Part shown: positions 56,345 through 64,000 of the stretch, one piece after another
How the letters are laid out: every line of letters begins with the position of its first letter
Numbering within the stretch: the stretch's first letter is position 1
From: an uncultured Muribaculaceae bacterium
Lineage (GTDB): Bacteria > Bacteroidota > Bacteroidia > Bacteroidales > Muribaculaceae
Reading direction: 5' to 3'
Assembly (NCBI GenBank): GCA_947625935.1
Contig: CANQQE010000005.1
Span: 1-64,000 of the forward strand
Length of the DNA stretch: 64,000 nt
Position numbers and translations under genes: made by a program
The notes under the pieces: generated by a model
Told to the model about the DNA's origin: nothing
Databases searched by the model: none
What the model saw: the letters and a program-made list of their open reading frames with translations, nothing else

Positions 56345-56392
56345 GATAAATGATAAAAGCGTGTGGGATCCCACACGCTTTTATCATTTATC
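56345..56392. terminator. perfect 48-bp palindrome, bidirectional terminator
   Basis: Both 24-nt halves are exact reverse complements with no spacer (centre TGGGATCCCA). It contains AAAAGCGTGTGGGA and TCCCACACGCTTTT, so it terminates on both strands. It overlaps the last codons of the transglutaminase-like gene and sits 24 bp after folB. Confidence 0.85.
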
Positions 56393-57940
56393 GGGATATG
56401 CGAAGTCGATTTTCGGAGGGGTCCCGGTGTATGCCGGCATACACATCCCCGTTGGCGCTCCGATGAAAGTCGGATCCGAGATGACGTAGCGCGCGCCCTT
56501 CCACTGGTAGGATGAGCCTTTGGCGTTGTCGAGTCTGACTGCCGCGCTCTCATGCCCCGGATAGTTAAGCAGATGGTTTTCGACCCCGAGGGCGTTCCAC
56601 AGCAGGTAGGTGTAGAATATCGACCGGTCCTCGCAGTCACATTGGGGGTAGTAGAGCATCTCCTCGATGAAATAGGGCTTTTCAAACCCGTGGGCCTCGT
56701 CGTCAGTGGCATATTCAAACCCGCTTTGGATGAATCCCAGCAGCTTGTCGATCGCTTTGCGCTTCTCAAGCCCCTCAAGCGATTTCTTAATCTGTGACAC
56801 CAACTCCTCGCGCGCTGCCCGGCATGGAGCCGACACGGCATAGTCGGCCATATCCATCTGTGGATAGCGGTAGAGCATCGGGAACAGATTGGCGTTGATT
56901 TCCCCTGAGAGGGTCATCCCGTCGTGCGAGATGTTGAAACTGTGGGGTTTATAGGGGAGATTTAGCTCGTTGACGAGCAAATCAAACGATTTGCAACTGT
57001 CGGCTTCCTTGGGCAGACGGCAGGTCGAGATGCGGCGTTCAGGGTCGGGCAGAGCCGTCGCCTTGTCACAGAACACATAGAATCGTTTCCCCTCGATTTC
57101 GAGATATGGACGGGCATAAATCATCTGATTGGCCGGGAGCAGCAACAGCCCTTCGCGCATATCGGTCATCGCTATGCGGGCGTCATACCCCATGTGGGCC
57201 AGCAGGTAGTGGGCGAGGGAGAGCCTCGAAGCCTGAGCCGCGTCGGGAAACCGCTGGTTGACCATCGACATGACCAATGTGAATTTCAGATAGTCGTTGA
57301 GGCCCATGCGTTCAGCCTCCCTCTCGATGGCGGGGAGTATCGACTTGGCGGCGTTTTGCTTGTCGAGGGTGCGCCATTGCAGGGCGAAATCACTCGTTTG
57401 CTCGATTTGGTCGAGAATCTGAAATTCGATGCGCGGCAAATCGACAGGAATGCCGTAAAAATCCACCGTGAACGCATCGGCGGGAGCCGTCGGGGCGGGT
57501 TTTGGCGCGGGAATCGGCTCAAGGGCGGGTCTCTGAGCCGGCACCGGCAGCGGCATCGGTTTAGGCGACGGCGACGGAATCGTCGCTATCGGTTTGGGCT
57601 TAGGCTCCGGTTTGGGAGCGGGTTTGGGCTTAGGTTCGGGGGCGACGGTCGGGGTCGGCAGAGCGGGTGGCTCCTCGGCGATCGGGGTGGCGGTCGGTGC
57701 TTTGCGGGGCTTGGGCTTGGGGTCGCGCGCCTCCCCCTTGAACTGCTTGAAATCGTCCCATACGCCATCGAGAAACTTGTCGTAGTCATCAAGCAGCTTG
57801 CTGCGATAGGAGTTATAGTTGTCGAGCAGTCGTTGGCGGTATTGGGCGAACGATGATGTGTCGGTCGTGGTCGTCTGCGCCATGGCGCCCAAGCAGGTCA
57901 CCATGGCTATGAACGAGCAGATAATTCTACCTTTATTCAT
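56384..57940 (-). CDS. exported proline-rich transglutaminase-like protein
   Basis: 518 residues. Signal peptide ~1-21 (FIAMVTCLGAMAQ). Residues ~73-153 are a Pro/Lys-rich linker (repeats like KPKPAPKPEPKPKP). The C-terminal domain has a transglutaminase-type triad: Cys in QCDCEDRSIFYTY (~434), His in YPGHESAAV, Asp in ISDPTFIGAP. This fold cleaves or transfers peptide amide bonds. Last gene of a five-gene minus-strand group with the caspase protein; it may process a surface protein or peptide of that system (inference). Confidence 0.8.
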   Translation of the reverse strand: MNKGRIICSFIAMVTCLGAMAQTTTTDTSSFAQYRQRLLDNYNSYRSKLLDDYDKFLDGVWDDFKQFKGEARDPKPKPRKAPTATPIAEEPPALPTPTVAPEPKPKPAPKPEPKPKPIATIPSPSPKPMPLPVPAQRPALEPIPAPKPAPTAPADAFTVDFYGIPVDLPRIEFQILDQIEQTSDFALQWRTLDKQNAAKSILPAIEREAERMGLNDYLKFTLVMSMVNQRFPDAAQASRLSLAHYLLAHMGYDARIAMTDMREGLLLLPANQMIYARPYLEIEGKRFYVFCDKATALPDPERRISTCRLPKEADSCKSFDLLVNELNLPYKPHSFNISHDGMTLSGEINANLFPMLYRYPQMDMADYAVSAPCRAAREELVSQIKKSLEGLEKRKAIDKLLGFIQSGFEYATDDEAHGFEKPYFIEEMLYYPQCDCEDRSIFYTYLLWNALGVENHLLNYPGHESAAVRLDNAKGSSYQWKGARYVISDPTFIGAPTGMCMPAYTGTPPKIDFAYPDK

Positions 57941-57997
57941 CGCTTTGGCAAAGTATTAGAATCAGAAAGGGTGATGGCTAAACGGTCTCCGAGTTTG

Positions 57998-58630
57998 TCA
58001 GTCAGCGACTCTTTCGCGTGCGAACTCCGAGATTTTTTCGGCGTGACGTTTGGCCACTTCGCTCTCCTTCAGAGCGTTTTCGAGGGCGCGCATACGGGCT
58101 TTCGACGCCGCGCTTTCGCTCGCCACGAAGTAGGTCTGTATCTCAAAAGTCCCGTCGCCGTTGTCGCGGATCACTGAGAAGCTTTCCTCCATCTCCCCCT
58201 TTATCTCCTTCTCGACAAGACGTTCGTAGGCCGCATAGAAGTGGTCAAACTCGCCCGCGGTGTCGGTGCTGTTGCCTGCTATGTCGCTCACCACCCGGCC
58301 CTGCAACTGGCTCCCGGCGCGCTGTGCGTAGGTCAGGCAAGCGTCGTTTATGGCCATCTGGTGTCCGAGATTCTTCGACTTGCAGCGCGAAGCCGTTCCG
58401 GCCACCTCATTGCCGTCTTCTCCCAGAGTGGCGAGCTTGTCATAGTGTTTCAGCAGGGCGACTTCGAGAGAGCGGGTGCTTCCGAAGATTTTCCACCCGT
58501 CTTTCTTGTATTCTTTGAGCTTCTCTTTCTTCTCTTTTTTCAGAGCCTTCTCGAGATCCTTGTTGGATGATTGCCCCATTAACGGCAAAACCAAGCAGGC
58601 TGCGATTAAAATCATCAATAACTTCTTCAT
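57998..58630 (-). CDS. exported LPP20-like protein, unknown
   Basis: 210 residues. Signal peptide ~1-19. A highly charged segment (DLEKALKKEKKEKLKEYKKD) leads to an LPP20-like domain: CKSKNLGHQMAINDACLTYA, then RVVSDIAGNSTD, and a long C-terminal helix EVAKRHAEKISEFARERVAD. LPP20 resemblance is weak and by pattern only. It lies 57 bp before the transglutaminase-like gene and 68 bp after the DUF4384 gene, same strand. Confidence 0.65.
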   Translation of the reverse strand: MKKLLMILIAACLVLPLMGQSSNKDLEKALKKEKKEKLKEYKKDGWKIFGSTRSLEVALLKHYDKLATLGEDGNEVAGTASRCKSKNLGHQMAINDACLTYAQRAGSQLQGRVVSDIAGNSTDTAGEFDHFYAAYERLVEKEIKGEMEESFSVIRDNGDGTFEIQTYFVASESAASKARMRALENALKESEVAKRHAEKISEFARERVAD

Positions 58631-58698
58631 TGTAGAAATGGTTTTAGGTGTTAATAAAAAGGTTTAAATTATCAATAAGCCACCGGGTTGGTCCGGCG

Positions 58699-59568
58699 TT
58701 ATTTTTCTATGGTGAGCCTTATGACTTTCACCCCCAGCTTGGGGTCGCGCTGACGGCTTTTCAGCAGCCATTTTGAAAACTCCTTGTACGAAAGCTCGCG
58801 CGGCGAATAGTTGCCGCTTTCGGTGTCGACGGCGAGTGAGTAGCGGTTGGGTGAGAAAATCAGATATAGGCTGTTGCGCTCTATGTCGGAGTCAGCGCTG
58901 AGCACGAGCTCGTCGGCCTGTCCCAGTTCCTCTGGCGATTTCGCGGGGTCAAACAGCATATACTCCCTTCCCCGGCGCAACCTGATGTCGTTGTTAGACG
59001 ATGTGTAATAGGGGAACAGTGAGTAGACATCGCGGTTTTCGCCCACAAGATAGATGGAGAGATAACCGTCGACCGGAGTTTTGACCGAGACAAACATATC
59101 ATCGCCCGAACGGAAACGCGTCGTGCTGTTGCGATGGTCCGCCCCGTTTCGCATCACGTCGGCCTCGAAATCGGTCGATTCGTTGGATATGGCTTTAGCC
59201 TTGCCCCGGATGCGGCATCTGACTATGTAGTTCCCGTCGTTGTCGATCGACACGTCATAGCTTGGCTCGCCGATGTCGGCCAGCCATTCCCCCTTGACCT
59301 CTGAGCGCGTCACATACTCGGTGTTCTGTATTTCATCGTCGCCAACCTTCTTGTTCTGGGTGTCGAAGACCGTTGTGAACAGGGTGCCGAACTCCTTGGC
59401 GAGCGCACTGACGCGGGCCCCTTCGAGAGCGGCTTCGCGGCAAGCCTCGGGCGAGTGTGAGCGGTCGCCGTAGAATGTGTAGACGCCCGATATGGCGCGC
59501 GTCCCCTGTCCGAAAACCGGAAGGGCGGCCATAAGCGTCAATACGGATATTAAGGCGGTGAGTTTCAT
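58699..59568 (-). CDS. exported DUF4384 protein
   Basis: 289 residues. Signal peptide ~1-20 (LMAALPVFGQG). N-terminal region ~25-130 resembles an LPP20/FlgT-like domain (REAALEGARVSALAKEFGTL). The DUF4384 part is ~150-250: FRSGDDMFVSVKTPVDGYLS, then YLVGENRDVYSLFPYYTSSN. DUF4384 modules often occur next to caspases or kinases in bacterial surface systems. Only 7 bp separate it from the caspase gene upstream. Confidence 0.82.
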   Translation of the reverse strand: MKLTALISVLTLMAALPVFGQGTRAISGVYTFYGDRSHSPEACREAALEGARVSALAKEFGTLFTTVFDTQNKKVGDDEIQNTEYVTRSEVKGEWLADIGEPSYDVSIDNDGNYIVRCRIRGKAKAISNESTDFEADVMRNGADHRNSTTRFRSGDDMFVSVKTPVDGYLSIYLVGENRDVYSLFPYYTSSNNDIRLRRGREYMLFDPAKSPEELGQADELVLSADSDIERNSLYLIFSPNRYSLAVDTESGNYSPRELSYKEFSKWLLKSRQRDPKLGVKVIRLTIEK

Positions 59569-59575
59569 GTCGGTA

Positions 59576-62227
59576 TCAGGGTCTCAGTTTCTTTTTCTTC
59601 CAGTTCTGCACCATCGCACCCGAAGTGCTGACCGTGGGAGTCTGCGGTTTCTTGTTTATCAGGTTGGACTGCTGGCTCACCGACTGGCTGACATACTCTG
59701 AAAGTTGCTGAAGGGTCACGTCGCCCTTTGATTCCTGCAATTTTTTGAGTAGGTAGTAGGTGAACAATCCATGGTTTTTATCGGCGTAGGGGAGAGCGAT
59801 TTCCTTCCCCGAGGTTGCCGTGAACACAAACATATTGCCGCGGGGTGATGCTTCGCGCGGCTTGTAACTGACGGCGCGCCCTTTGACCACGGCTTCCCCG
59901 CTACGGTCTGATCCGCTGAAGCAGGCGTCGAGAAACACCATTATGTTTTTGGCGTCGGTTTCGCCGAGGTCGGTGTAGAATTTCTCCAATTTGTAGTTTG
60001 TGGCGAAGATTGTCGGAATCCCGTCGGCGGGCATCAGATACGCGTCTGAGCTTTTCTCGTCGGGCATACCGTGTCCGGCATAGTAGACGATTACGTCGGC
60101 CGCGCCGCCAAATGACTTGACTGTGTTTTTGATATGCTCCACAGCACCCATCATGTTGCCGTAGGTGGCGTCTTTAAGCAGCGTGATGTTGTTCTTCGGT
60201 ATTCCAAGGGTCTCGTTGCAGTATTGGGCGAATCGTTCGCCGTCGTGCAACGCCGATTGCACCTTTGGCGCGTGCTGGTAGTTCTCGTTGGCTATGACCA
60301 ATGCGAGAGTCGACGGGGAGGTCTTGTTGGTTCGCGGTATGTTGACGTCGACATCGCTTTTTTTGGTGATGACGATCGGACCTGCGACCGACGACTGCCC
60401 TCCGCCGGCGGCCATGTCGCTTTTGGGGCTGTCGTTTATGCCGGCGAGAATGGCCTCGAAATCGATTTCCACATCGGTGTTGGCATATCTGACACCTTCC
60501 GAGTTGTTGTAGGTGTACGTTTTACCCTGCGGCGTCTTGGCGGTGATTGACGCGAGCCTCACCTTGTCGCGGTCTATGTAGTAGACGGGGTTGCGGAAAT
60601 TCATCCCCTCCCAGTTCGATTTGAACATCTCGGCTTCGTTGCCTCTCAGCGGCACACTGAAATACAGGTCTCCGAACGATGACTCCACTTTGAACGTTTC
60701 GTTGGTGGCGTCATAAGGCAACAGTTTCAAGTCGCTGATGCGCAGCTTCTTGGCATATTGTTCGAGGTAGACCTGCTGTGCTTCGAGGTTGAGTTTCTTG
60801 TATTCCTCCTGAATTGATGCGTCGTTCACGCGCTTGCGATAGTCGGCGATGCGCTCAAATTCCCCCTTTTTGGCCCATGATGTGAGGCCGTTGGTGATAT
60901 AGTCCTTGCCGAAGGCAGAGTAGAGCGGTATCTCGCCGCCGAGGTTGACGGCGGTGGTGCCAACCACGCGGTCATAGTTCTTGCGGTTGCCGTCGTTGTA
61001 GGTCATCATCGGCGGCATGAACACTTCGGGAACCGGCTGTTCGCCGAGCGATGTGAGGCGGCGGTTTATATCCTCATATTGCGTCTTCGAGTTTATGGCG
61101 AGGTATGACATACCCAGTGCCTTCAGATACTTCACCGACATCGGGTCTGAAGCTATGACCTCCTCGAGTTTCTGTGCCGCCGACGAGAAATAGTTGTGCG
61201 ACTGGCGGCGTTTTTTGCGCGAGATTTTCTCGTCAGGCTCGTTGACGGCATCGTTGAAAAATCCCACCCCCATGTTGTAGTAGCATAGTGCGATGTGCTT
61301 TGCTGTGCTGAGTTTCTGAGGGGAAATCTGGTCGAGCCTGAAATAAATTTCGAGTGCCTTCTGATACTGGTTGTCGTCTTCATAAAGTTTACCCTGGATG
61401 TTGAGCAACGCCTCGTCGTCGGGGGTCAGCTCAAGCGCGCGGGTCAGAAACGACTGCAGTTGCTCGGCGTGGCCGCCGTCGATACACCCTTTGATGGCTA
61501 TGAGAAGCATCTGGTGGTTCAGCGGGTAGAGCTTGACACCCTCGGTCATGGCGGTGACGGCGAGGTCATAGTTCTTGGAGTTCAGGCAAGCCTGACCCAT
61601 GAAAACATAGACCTGTTCGCGCTGCTTGGTCTCGCCGGTCGAGAAGTAGACGTTGAAGTATTTTATGGCCCTCTCATATTGTTCATGGTTGTAGGCCCTC
61701 GAGGCGGCGATATAGGCCAGGGTCGGATAGGCGCTGTCGCGGGGCCACACCTCCCCCTTGAATATATCCATCAGTTGGATGTCGAGGTAGATTTGTGCCA
61801 GTCGCCCCATCATGTCGTTGTCACCTTTCGACGAATAGTGGAACGCGCCCTCCTCCATCTCCGTATCGAGATTGCGCAGTATATCCTTGACCTTGTACCA
61901 TCCGTCGCTATATTCATCGAGGCGCGAAAGCGCGTCAATGGCTATGTCATAGCTCTTTAAGGCAAGAGGGTAGATTGAGTCGGGGTTGGCCGAGGAATAT
62001 TTCATCTCCACCATCTGCCTGAAAGTGGCCGACGCGAGGTTAACGACGCTGTCGCGCCGTGCGGCCTCGATGGAATCCGCGCGCCACTGGTCGATTGAGT
62101 CGGTGGCGGCCGTCACGGCTATCTCGTCGGTAAACTCGACCGACTCACCCCGCAACGGTTGCGGGGTGAGCCAGCAGAGTGAGACTATTGCCGATAGTAG
62201 CAGAAACGCTGTTCGTAGCTGCTTCAT
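59576..62227 (-). CDS. exported TPR-caspase (peptidase C14) protein
   Basis: 883 residues. Signal peptide ~1-28. TPR-type helices span ~35-420. A module at ~450-575 is shared with the WD40 protein upstream (KKGEFERIADYRKRV, then PQGKTYTYNN). The caspase domain lies ~635-860: LALVIANENYQHAPK, catalytic His in YYAGHGMPDE (~716), catalytic Cys in FLDACFSGSD (~767). It therefore should be an active Cys protease with specificity for acidic or basic P1, unknown. The envelope location is unusual for caspase-like proteins. Confidence 0.88.
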   Translation of the reverse strand: MKQLRTAFLLLSAIVSLCWLTPQPLRGESVEFTDEIAVTAATDSIDQWRADSIEAARRDSVVNLASATFRQMVEMKYSSANPDSIYPLALKSYDIAIDALSRLDEYSDGWYKVKDILRNLDTEMEEGAFHYSSKGDNDMMGRLAQIYLDIQLMDIFKGEVWPRDSAYPTLAYIAASRAYNHEQYERAIKYFNVYFSTGETKQREQVYVFMGQACLNSKNYDLAVTAMTEGVKLYPLNHQMLLIAIKGCIDGGHAEQLQSFLTRALELTPDDEALLNIQGKLYEDDNQYQKALEIYFRLDQISPQKLSTAKHIALCYYNMGVGFFNDAVNEPDEKISRKKRRQSHNYFSSAAQKLEEVIASDPMSVKYLKALGMSYLAINSKTQYEDINRRLTSLGEQPVPEVFMPPMMTYNDGNRKNYDRVVGTTAVNLGGEIPLYSAFGKDYITNGLTSWAKKGEFERIADYRKRVNDASIQEEYKKLNLEAQQVYLEQYAKKLRISDLKLLPYDATNETFKVESSFGDLYFSVPLRGNEAEMFKSNWEGMNFRNPVYYIDRDKVRLASITAKTPQGKTYTYNNSEGVRYANTDVEIDFEAILAGINDSPKSDMAAGGGQSSVAGPIVITKKSDVDVNIPRTNKTSPSTLALVIANENYQHAPKVQSALHDGERFAQYCNETLGIPKNNITLLKDATYGNMMGAVEHIKNTVKSFGGAADVIVYYAGHGMPDEKSSDAYLMPADGIPTIFATNYKLEKFYTDLGETDAKNIMVFLDACFSGSDRSGEAVVKGRAVSYKPREASPRGNMFVFTATSGKEIALPYADKNHGLFTYYLLKKLQESKGDVTLQQLSEYVSQSVSQQSNLINKKPQTPTVSTSGAMVQNWKKKKLRP

Positions 62228-62257
62228 GTTCAGTCGTGTGGGTTTGTTTAATAGTGA

Positions 62258-64000
62258 TTAGTCAAACACATCAAAGAAGGTGAACTCGGTCGATATGCGG
62301 CGGTACTGGCTGCCTTTGTCTTCCGACACGCTGATGTAGTAGCGGTAGTCGGTGTTCATCTCTTTGAGTTTTTCAACGTTTTTGTCGAGGAAGTCTTTCA
62401 CTCCGTAGGCGCGGAGGAATGCGAGTTGCTCGTTCTCCTTGATGCCTGTCTTCGGGTTGATGGTGATGGCGGTCAGTTGGTCATTCTGATAGACAGGTTC
62501 GTCGTCGAAGTCGCCGTATGAGCCGTCATAGGCTATACCGTAGAGAATCGGGGTGGCGTCGGCTGAGCCTGTGATTTTAATGGCTGATTTTTTGCCGGCG
62601 GTGAGGTATTGCCCCAGTTCGCTGTCAAACGCTTTCTTGATTATGTCGAGCATCGCTGTCGCGGCATGTGAGTCCTCCGCCTTGTATTTGCCCGGGCCGA
62701 AATCTTCTTCGGCGGTAAATTCAGGCTCAACCTCATAGACGAAACGGACTTTGTAGTTGAGTATGCGGTTGCCGTTGGCGTCTATGTCGGGTTCAACGCT
62801 TGAGCTGACAGTGATTTGCGTGTGATCCGAGATGACGTTGCGCGATTTGGCCTCCTCGACAACTTTGCGTCTGATTTCTTCAAGACGCATCTCCTCGAGC
62901 CTTTGCTGTTGAAGCACCTCGAGCGAGATGACGTTGTCGTCACCTTCAAGGAAGCTCAGGGGTGTGCGGTCGAGGTTGTTGTAGATGTAGGTCTTTCCGT
63001 CTGCGGGATTGTAGATCTCGGCATAGATAATCTCGAATTTATCGTTGGCGGTCACACCGTATTTCACGTTGCGGAACTCGAGGTCTTTACCGCTCTTGAA
63101 GGCCACGACATCATCCTCCGACACGGGGAGATAGATGGCGGGCATATTCCCGAGGTTGATACCGAGCAAGCCTTGACCGCGGTCATATTTACCGAGCGAC
63201 ACCTCCGACATGGCGAGCTGGTCGCCGGCAAGGCGGGTGGCTATCTCATCCTCAAATTCCCGCAGCTTGTTTTTGCGGTTCTCGTCTGAGACGCGTTTGG
63301 CATAATCGTCCATCGACTCACCTGGTATCATCTTCAACCACTCGTCCATCATCTCTTTAGCACCGTCGGCCACGAGTTTACCGTAGTAGGGGGAGAGCTT
63401 CAGCATTCGGCGCACGTCGATTCCTCCGTCGACGGTGTAGGCCATAAGTGTGCGGCGGTATGAGTCGGGAATGAATTTCATATCTGTGATGCCACCTTTT
63501 TCGATGTCTATCACGTCACGGTCTTCGGGGTCGATGAGGTTTACGATTTCAATGGTGCGCGGTGAAGTGACTATGGCAACATATTTTCCGTCGAAGTTGT
63601 AATCAAACGCACGGCTGTTTCCAAGATTGTCAAGTTCTTTCTTTATCAGGAAGTTACGGGTGTCGTAGATGGTTAGGGTTCCGTCGTTGGTGAGAATCGC
63701 GAACTCAGTGTTGTCGTCGTTGAACCCTATGTCGCATATGGCTCCACCGAAATCCCACGTCTGGCGCGGTTTCTTCTCCTCGAAGTTGTAGACGGCGACC
63801 TTGGCCCCGTTGGTCATGGCCAGATAGTAGCCGTTCTCGCTGATGGCCATGTTGGTGGGGATGAACTGTAGCGGCATGGTGTCGATAGGCTCGAACGTGC
63901 GGGCGTCGAGAATGTTAAGACGCTTGTCGGTGGCGAGCAGGAAACGGCGGGCATCTCGGGTGTAGATGCCCGCAATGGGATTTCCGAGTTTCTTGTTCTT
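62258..64000 (-). CDS. WD40 repeat protein with OmpA-like C-terminus, 5' end outside window
   Basis: Open to the right edge with no stop, so incomplete; 580 residues are visible. The first ~170 are WD40-like blades (YLAMTNGAKVAVYNFEEKKP, GFNDDNTEFAILTNDGTLTI). At ~215-340 comes the module shared with the caspase protein (DDYAKRVSDENRKN, then ADGKTYIYNN). A coiled coil follows (LEEMRLEEIRRKVVEEAK) and then an OmpA-like C-terminus: IKITGSADATPILYGIAYDG, then NEQLAFLRAYGVKDFL, which suggests peptidoglycan contact. Translation may also start inside the window at 63877, but the frame continues upstream in a WD40-like style. Confidence 0.82.
   Translation of the reverse strand, partial: KNKKLGNPIAGIYTRDARRFLLATDKRLNILDARTFEPIDTMPLQFIPTNMAISENGYYLAMTNGAKVAVYNFEEKKPRQTWDFGGAICDIGFNDDNTEFAILTNDGTLTIYDTRNFLIKKELDNLGNSRAFDYNFDGKYVAIVTSPRTIEIVNLIDPEDRDVIDIEKGGITDMKFIPDSYRRTLMAYTVDGGIDVRRMLKLSPYYGKLVADGAKEMMDEWLKMIPGESMDDYAKRVSDENRKNKLREFEDEIATRLAGDQLAMSEVSLGKYDRGQGLLGINLGNMPAIYLPVSEDDVVAFKSGKDLEFRNVKYGVTANDKFEIIYAEIYNPADGKTYIYNNLDRTPLSFLEGDDNVISLEVLQQQRLEEMRLEEIRRKVVEEAKSRNVISDHTQITVSSSVEPDIDANGNRILNYKVRFVYEVEPEFTAEEDFGPGKYKAEDSHAATAMLDIIKKAFDSELGQYLTAGKKSAIKITGSADATPILYGIAYDGSYGDFDDEPVYQNDQLTAITINPKTGIKENEQLAFLRAYGVKDFLDKNVEKLKEMNTDYRYYISVSEDKGSQYRRISTEFTFFDVFD

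Follow-up and report, generated by a model that had tools for sequence, protein, structure and literature searches.

Gene content of the locus

The window analyzed here, bases 1 to 64000 of a 146684-base contig (C5) from the 3.69-Mb genome of an uncultured Muribaculaceae bacterium, ends in an operon on the minus strand (56384-64000) that encodes, in order of transcription, a WD40 beta-propeller protein, a TPR-caspase, a DUF4384 protein, an LPP20-like protein, and a transglutaminase-like protein (TG). A first-pass annotation of the window had described five co-directional genes with gaps of 7 to 68 bp, and the recomputed open reading frames (ORFs) and gaps (30, 7, 68, and 57 bp from WD40 to TG) agree with it. 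It had also proposed extending the sequence to the right; there, the WD40 gene, cut by the window edge, is complete (contig 62258-64360, start at 64360; 700 amino acids with a signal-like N terminus) and further members, a FecR-like gene and a CHASE2 gene, lie upstream of it. The five genes first taken as the full set are therefore real and adjacent, but the set was too short, omitting these two, and it is not fixed across loci. Functional linkage of the genes, proposed earlier from gene order, is well supported at the sequence level by the conservation of that order, by a second operon of the same genome with four of the families, and by fusions of the WD40-protein tail to a caspase domain. 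We see about an even chance that these genes specify a processing protease complex located in the envelope.

Putative promoters were sought with a consensus, TTTG-N18-22-TANNTTTG, that we take to be the Bacteroidetes type. A perfect match (TTTG-N21-TATATTTG) is found immediately upstream of the FecR-like gene (contig 65322-65354). A promoter between the genes had been named as a point against an operon; no Bacteroidetes-type match lies on the minus strand within 56384-64000, and generic sigma-70 and terminator scans of the operon region were at chance level. Terminator-like matches in the region numbered 14 versus 13.2 in shuffles, the 20-pair stem at the operon end and its variants being the longest listed. 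Together, the promoter match before the FecR-like gene and the hairpin after the last gene make a six-gene transcript likely, running from FecR-like to TG with the CHASE2 gene in front of it. Locus L004, which holds the operon, has four Bacteroidetes-type matches versus 0.13 expected, one of them antisense inside the WD40 gene. The consensus matches the whole window eight times versus 0.5 expected and may be a usable promoter guide for this genome.

Conservation in related genomes

Gene order was compared in 80 loci kept from 138 related loci, whose records are mostly labeled Muribaculaceae, Porphyromonadaceae, Bacteroides, or other Bacteroidales. In 78 of the 80, the caspase gene comes immediately after the WD40 gene; of the two exceptions, L104 ends at a contig edge, and the gene at this place in L074 matches none of these families. 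Presence of the other members was scored as a matching same-strand gene from 4 kb before the WD40 gene to the end of the locus, which is not strict adjacency. Where at least 6.3 kb of downstream sequence was available (63 loci), the caspase was found in 63, DUF4384 in 59, LPP20-like in 56, and TG in 52, with all four in 49; the other 14 lack one or more of DUF4384, LPP20-like, and TG. Upstream, CHASE2 and FecR-like genes occur together in 27 of the 63 loci with at least 2.6 kb of sequence and singly in none. Median gaps for the six usual neighbor pairs are 1 to 48 bp. Distance matrices of the genes are correlated over 54 loci (Mantel r of 0.48 to 0.90, versus 0.33 for the highest of 999 permutations), a comparison of linked genes from related species with no unlinked control gene.

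Thirteen of the 80 genomes of the family, this one included, contain a full-length caspase orthologue at 41% identity or more. Counting every caspase match as an orthologue was rejected, as 52 of the 80 have a match. In 10 of the 12 other genomes with a full-length orthologue the order is CHASE2-FecR-WD40-caspase-DUF4384-LPP20-TG apart from minor irregularities (L030 has an additional gene, L031 an unmatched ORF where DUF4384 would stand, L035 a FecR-like gene split into two ORFs, and L040 a TG gene cut by the contig end), while L029 and L038 lack CHASE2-FecR and L038 has the LPP20-like gene first. The flanking genes, compared by eye, differ among most of these loci. The extra gene of L030 (11746-13245, minus strand), between the FecR-like and WD40 genes, encodes an exported-looking protein of 499 amino acids, and four loci (L107, L111, L113, and L123) have tandem duplicated TG genes at the downstream end of the operon.

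Of 198 genomes drawn across the order, one, the genome of the window, has the full WD40 protein, which suggests that this protein is probably limited to some families. It had no match in plasmids, phages, or viral contigs, where it was the one operon protein searched, and a mobile or phage-borne system was rejected on that basis.

Protein families and catalytic residues

The caspase scores 73.9 bits against Pfam Peptidase_C14 (cut-off, 21.4) and carries the motifs GHG and DACFSG. The His/Cys pair reported in the first pass (H719 and C769) is invariant in 41 of 41 aligned proteins, as are D662 and D767; the alignment comprises 40 rows chosen from 76 proteins of 600 to 950 amino acids plus the window protein. 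A search of solved structures with the full protein profile was swamped by TPR chains, and the caspase domain alone was then used. It retrieved 10 chains, each a MALT1 paracaspase or a homologue of MALT1 (best E value, 1.8e-5), in which acidic residues align with D662 and D767. We take those MALT1 residues to line its S1 pocket for Arg, and a P1 specificity for Arg/Lys appears likely for the window caspase. Against the EACC1-associated caspase model (NCBIfam NF047832) it scores 70 bits, below the curated cut-off of 140. TPR_14 is above its Pfam cut-off in this protein and other TPR models are below theirs; the beta-propeller matches of the WD40 protein are all below family cut-offs.

The WD40 and caspase proteins have a common middle domain (hhalign P = 1.9e-14 over 175 columns). 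Six of 15 WD40 proteins have weak matches to the KTSC domain (best E value, 7.1e-5) that may form part of this common domain.

The more divergent proteins were compared by hhalign with profiles of reference domains, of which 21 of 24 were used for TG, 26 of 30 for OmpA, 29 of 30 for LPP20, and 30 of 30 for FecR, the rest being dropped for a length below 60; for 18 of the 114 references the strand was open either way and was taken from tables. Off-target comparisons gave P values of 0.05 to 0.68 except for DUF4384 against LPP20 (9.6e-4), from which the DUF4384 protein would seem to contain a short LPP20-like stretch. For the labels OmpA-like and LPP20-like of the first-pass annotation, the profile matches are moderate, and Pfam detects neither family. 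The WD40-protein tail aligns with the OmpA profile at P = 3.5e-4 and a probability of 37%; its motifs GxAD and NEQLAFxRA replace the GHTD and NxxLSxxRA of OmpA, with an insertion of approximately 30 to 35 residues between them. In that alignment, the tail residues equivalent to the Asp and Arg of OmpA, presumably its peptidoglycan-binding residues, are invariant in 43 of 43 proteins (42 rows chosen from 78, plus the window protein). OmpA (PF00691) is absent from the 11 Pfam matches of the window's WD40 protein and from the 25 of 61 families listed in the scan of other members. The LPP20-like protein matches the LPP20 profile at P = 2.8e-4 (probability, 41%; 105 columns). LPP20 is absent from the 25 of 30 Pfam families listed for 19 members, in three of which FlgT_N appears (best E value, 0.091), and the best E value in the solved-structure profile search was 0.42.

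TG matches a Transglut_core profile built from relatives at P = 7e-6 and a probability of 84.5%, with the Cys column aligned, while controls with three families gave P values of 0.14 to 0.29. The Cys-His-Asp triad reported for it is intact, with C436, H463, and D489 invariant in 38 of 38 proteins (37 rows chosen from 55, plus the window protein). There was no Pfam Transglut match for the window TG and one at an E value of 0.025 among 16 members, and the solved-structure search returned low-complexity matches only. For the window LPP20-like and TG proteins all Pfam matches were at chance level. The window DUF4384 protein scores 24.2 bits against a Pfam cut-off of 27, and 16 of 16 members match at E values up to 1 (best, 2.1e-7). 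CHASE2 is clear at 73.9 bits (cut-off, 26.3), with no other Pfam domain in its 402 amino acids. FecR was rejected as a secure label: the profile match is weak (P = 0.004 over 30 columns), FecR is absent from the four chance-level Pfam families listed for 10 FecR-like members, and the solved-structure profile search gave no match.

Export

Signal peptides had been noted in four of the five genes of the window, and all seven proteins of the extended operon, the completed WD40 protein included, pass a home-made hydropathy rule that tries several starts and is not SignalP. By this rule, signal-like N termini were found in 65 of 65 LPP20-like proteins, 59/62 TG, 63/66 DUF4384, 74/81 caspase, 72/81 WD40, and 29/31 FecR-like proteins, compared with 0 of 386 at one internal control position per protein over these six families (CHASE2 excluded). 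CHASE2 passed at the N terminus in 19 of 31 and internally in 5 of 31, as for a membrane protein. TG has a Pro-rich stretch after its signal-like N terminus. Export of the operon proteins is well supported by these predictions.

Smaller operons and tail-caspase fusions

A second operon of the same genome (contig C6, 9576-15723; L243, 3577-9724) has the order LPP20-DUF4384-TPR-caspase-x-x-TG and lacks WD40, CHASE2, and FecR. TG matches lie within 6 kb of a caspase match in 27 of 46 loci, 12 of which are the WD40-type operon, versus approximately 0.4 expected if each genome is assumed to be 2.6 Mb. This count used 46 of 57 TG rows and 64 caspase rows, after gene pieces, weak rows, and TPR-only rows were dropped, and a G012 TG split over two contigs was counted as far. 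Five further loci (L244 to L248), chosen because their caspase and TG matches are near each other, all contain LPP20-like and DUF4384 genes as well.

Scans of 198 and 295 genomes brought up three genomes from other families with proteins in which the WD40-protein tail is joined to a caspase domain (L253, L254, and L268; Table 1). The L253 protein matches both window genes (E values of 5.7e-34 and 6.5e-30), and the fusion tails are recognized by the profile of the tail itself at 152 to 172 bits. L270 has a WD40-caspase fusion whose cluster also contains a further caspase gene, an LPP20-like gene, and a DUF4384 match that is weak (24 bits). The tail-caspase fusions are the strongest evidence that the tail of the WD40 protein acts together with the protease, and scaffold and protease probably work jointly.

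Elsewhere, LPP20-like and TG genes stand side by side without a caspase in L047 (9244-11633) and L048 (7005-9421), beside further exported-looking proteins. A third caspase-domain protein of this genome (L003, 1462-2316, minus strand, contig C3; 284 amino acids) looks exported and lies outside these operons. Genes named by eye as HIT family and GreA-like occur both near the WD40-type operon of this genome (L004, 15823-16712) and near the smaller operon of G042 (L247, 3341-4204), possibly a common neighborhood.

Table 1. Features of the operon and of the tail-caspase fusions (window positions unless a contig or locus is given)
Feature	Position	Strand or direction	Basis or remark
Terminator-like hairpin, 20 pairs and T-rich tail	56345..56392	-	Operon end; overlaps final TG codons
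TG, exported transglutaminase-like protein, 518 aa (amino acids)	56384..57940	-	C436, H463, D489; profile match to Transglut_core
LPP20-like exported protein, 210 aa	57998..58630	-	Profile match to LPP20
Exported DUF4384 protein, 289 aa, perhaps with short LPP20-like N-terminal stretch	58699..59568	-	Pfam, profiles
Exported TPR - shared domain - caspase protein, 883 aa	59576..62227	-	ORF, Pfam, alignment
Caspase domain (His719, Cys769; acidic D662, D767)	59579..60364	-	Pfam, alignment, structure-profile search
Middle domain of caspase protein, homologous to that of WD40 protein	60428..60955	-	hhalign
Beta-propeller (WD40) - shared domain - OmpA-like protein	62258..64000, open at edge	-	580 of 700 aa inside window
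OmpA-like tail of WD40 protein	62258..62698	-	Motifs and hhalign
Middle domain of WD40 protein, common with caspase protein	62921..63403	-	hhalign
FecR-like exported protein gene	contig 64409-65245	Same direction, upstream of WD40	Sequence beyond window
CHASE2 membrane protein gene, 402 aa	contig 65395-66603	Same direction, upstream of FecR-like	Sequence beyond window
L253 fusion, 733 aa	L253 3549-5750		Lipoprotein-like start by eye; overlapping DUF4384 gene next
L254 fusion, 456 aa	L254 2823-4193	-	Start uncertain
L268 fusion, 985 aa	L268 6254-9211		Signal-like start, SBBP propeller repeats, tail, caspase

Fimbrillin-like genes in some operons

In 12 loci a CarboxypepD_reg-like gene lies behind the caspase gene, and in eight of them a fimbrillin-like gene then follows according to a profile seeded within these gene runs (L117, 15472-19760; L105, 15533-19127; L119, 9891-13212; L093; L099; L102; L103; and L124, the last by this profile only). 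Pfam, run on 10 proteins from four of these loci, confirms 7 of the 14 fimbrillin-like ORFs. The in-run profile finds 14 fimbrillin-like ORFs among 195 noncore ORFs inside the runs and 0 among 422 outside (P = 7e-8), a result that its seeding favors, and it recovers 12 of 20 independent fimbrillins. An independent profile, built from those 20 fimbrillins of other loci, gives 11/195 inside versus 0/422 outside in seven loci (P = 2.6e-6); it drops L124 and two ORFs of L119, one of these Pfam confirmed. Both tests treat ORFs of related loci as independent.

Genomes with the operon have more matches to the fimbrillin family PF13149 (median, 3.5 versus 1.0; one-sided P = 0.047), in a weak test that is uncorrected for genome size or kinship and that counts G005, which has a diverged WD40-type operon, as lacking it. 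G019 carries the operon and has no PF13149 match. Fimbrillin processing as the general role of the operon was rejected, as the genome of the window is also without a PF13149 match, the one fimbrillin family searched for there. Type V fimbrillins, which are lipoproteins, require proteolysis to mature, and in Porphyromonas gingipains carry this out (PMC11316588). The fimbrillin-like genes in these operons suggest surface-protein processing. In L101 (15585-19362), two large Lcl_C-domain proteins with lipoprotein-like starts by eye occupy the place of the fimbrillins, and one protein of L117 (18219-19760) has both Lcl_C and fimbrillin-like domains.

Proposed function and alternatives

The likely mechanism, we infer, is that of a peptidoglycan-anchored processing protease complex. 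All soluble members would be exported by Sec. The WD40 protein would serve as the scaffold, with its OmpA-like tail binding peptidoglycan, its propeller binding clients or partners, and its middle domain pairing with the related middle domain of the TPR-caspase. The caspase, of the paracaspase type and a predicted Arg/Lys cutter, would make specific cuts in exported proteins, the DUF4384 and LPP20-like proteins would be small accessory subunits, and TG could be a second cysteine hydrolase or a transamidase acting on the same clients. In some lineages, the CHASE2 membrane protein and the exported FecR-like protein may form a sensor. Several observations weigh against such a complex: of the 63 loci with sufficient downstream sequence, 12 lack TG or LPP20-like and 4 lack DUF4384, the OmpA-like probability of the WD40 tail is 37% and none of the three fusion proteins has a Pfam OmpA domain, the evidence that the FecR-like protein is FecR is weak (P = 0.004 over 30 columns; no FecR among the four chance-level Pfam families listed), and the zero PF13149 matches of this genome argue against fimbrillins as general clients. 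A bolder version, which strikes us as improbable, is an apoptosome-like assembly outside the cytoplasm, in which a propeller fixed to peptidoglycan would recruit the TPR-caspase through the homotypic domain, CHASE2/FecR would act as the switch, and surface proteins including fimbrillins would be matured or remodeled, making the system a general Bacteroidales counterpart of the gingipains.

If the fimbrillin-like genes are taken as the guide, the caspase might be a maturation protease for fimbrillins or type V pili, acting as gingipains do on FimA and Mfa1 in Porphyromonas. The gene runs with CarboxypepD_reg and fimbrillin-like genes (8 of the 80 loci by the in-run profile and 7 by the independent one), the Pfam-confirmed ORFs, the higher PF13149 counts, and the known maturation of type V pilins by gingipains (PMC11316588) all point this way. 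However, runs in seven or eight loci would make pilus maturation at most a special case, the comparison of PF13149 counts is weak, and two operon-bearing genomes, G019 and that of the window, have no PF13149 match; we consider this explanation unlikely. The same fimbrillin partners fit processing better than they fit a programmed-death or conflict system, in which, as proposed for other prokaryotic caspases, a signal through CHASE2/FecR would cause the envelope caspase and TG to damage the cell's own or a neighbor's envelope. Caspase homologues and transglutaminase-like domains do occur in predicted conflict systems (PMC8195603), the orthologue is patchily present in the family (13 of 80 genomes), and in a search for antiphage defense genes (PADLOC) the caspase matched a generic caspase model at an E value of 1.2e-8. 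That model was the only PADLOC match, the six partner proteins giving none; by eye, the operon genes include no effector of the amidase, lipase, or pore kind and no immunity gene; the flanks, viewed by eye and not systematically annotated, are mostly housekeeping-like; plasmids, phages, and viral contigs gave no match to the WD40 protein; and gene order is kept across many species. A death or conflict role is, in our judgment, quite unlikely.

The operon could also be a set of loosely related envelope proteins that are transcribed together under a common regulator and form no physical complex. Such an arrangement would account for the way in which genes downstream of the caspase vary in order or are absent and for the LPP20-like and TG genes found together without a caspase in L047 and L048, but the tail-caspase fusions and the shared middle domain argue for physical association, and we give it little credence. 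A processing protease complex of the envelope is the reading we prefer. Prokaryotic caspases are mostly discussed as intracellular death or defense enzymes, and this putatively exported set offers a concrete role other than cell death that can be tested in an important group of gut bacteria, in which the operon may name a processing protease for exported surface proteins.

Comparison with known systems

MALT1 is an animal signaling protease with other partner domains. The window caspase resembles the MALT1 paracaspase (PDB 3v4o) in its aligned His, Cys, and acidic residue two positions before the Cys, at an E value of only 1.8e-5. LapG-type enzymes are transglutaminase-like, papain-fold periplasmic cysteine proteases that act on a surface adhesin; unlike in the LapG system, no LapD or cyclic di-GMP domain is found among the Pfam matches of the operon proteins. 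Gingipains have a caspase-like fold, and their genes are not known to be linked to fimbrillin genes. The likeness to gingipains R and K acting on FimA and Mfa1 lies in a predicted envelope protease and, in some operons, fimbrillin-like genes (PMC11316588). The operon caspase differs from them in having TPR and the shared domain, and its genome lacks PF13149 fimbrillins. An exported FecR-domain protein also stands beside a CHASE2 membrane sensor in the Burkholderia BiofilmReg operon, where CHASE2 is part of a histidine kinase, whereas the CHASE2 protein of the window operon has no other Pfam domain (PMC5192318).

Precedents are found among prokaryotic caspases themselves. Cyanobacterial orthocaspases are known to carry DUF4384 and WD40 as accessory domains (PMC7475262), and the survey by Asplund-Samuelsson et al. 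in 2012 reported that 14 of 217 metacaspase operons contain OmpA domains (PMC3501461) and that many metacaspases have an N-terminal helix that is a possible signal peptide. The first-pass annotation knew of no described system with this full set in the envelope; no description of the whole set was found in the literature searched, which mostly excludes subscription journals, but the combination of a caspase homologue with an OmpA-domain protein in one operon is shared with these metacaspase (orthocaspase) operons. In its accessible text, the survey does not use the words transglutaminase and DUF4384 and names no transglutaminase-like, DUF4384, LPP20-like, or FecR partner, shared domain, or OmpA-caspase fusion. 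The gene set is a variation on known exported orthocaspase operons: a conserved, putatively exported set around a caspase, for which proteins joining scaffold tail and protease occur in three genomes of other families and which in some species includes fimbrillin-like genes.

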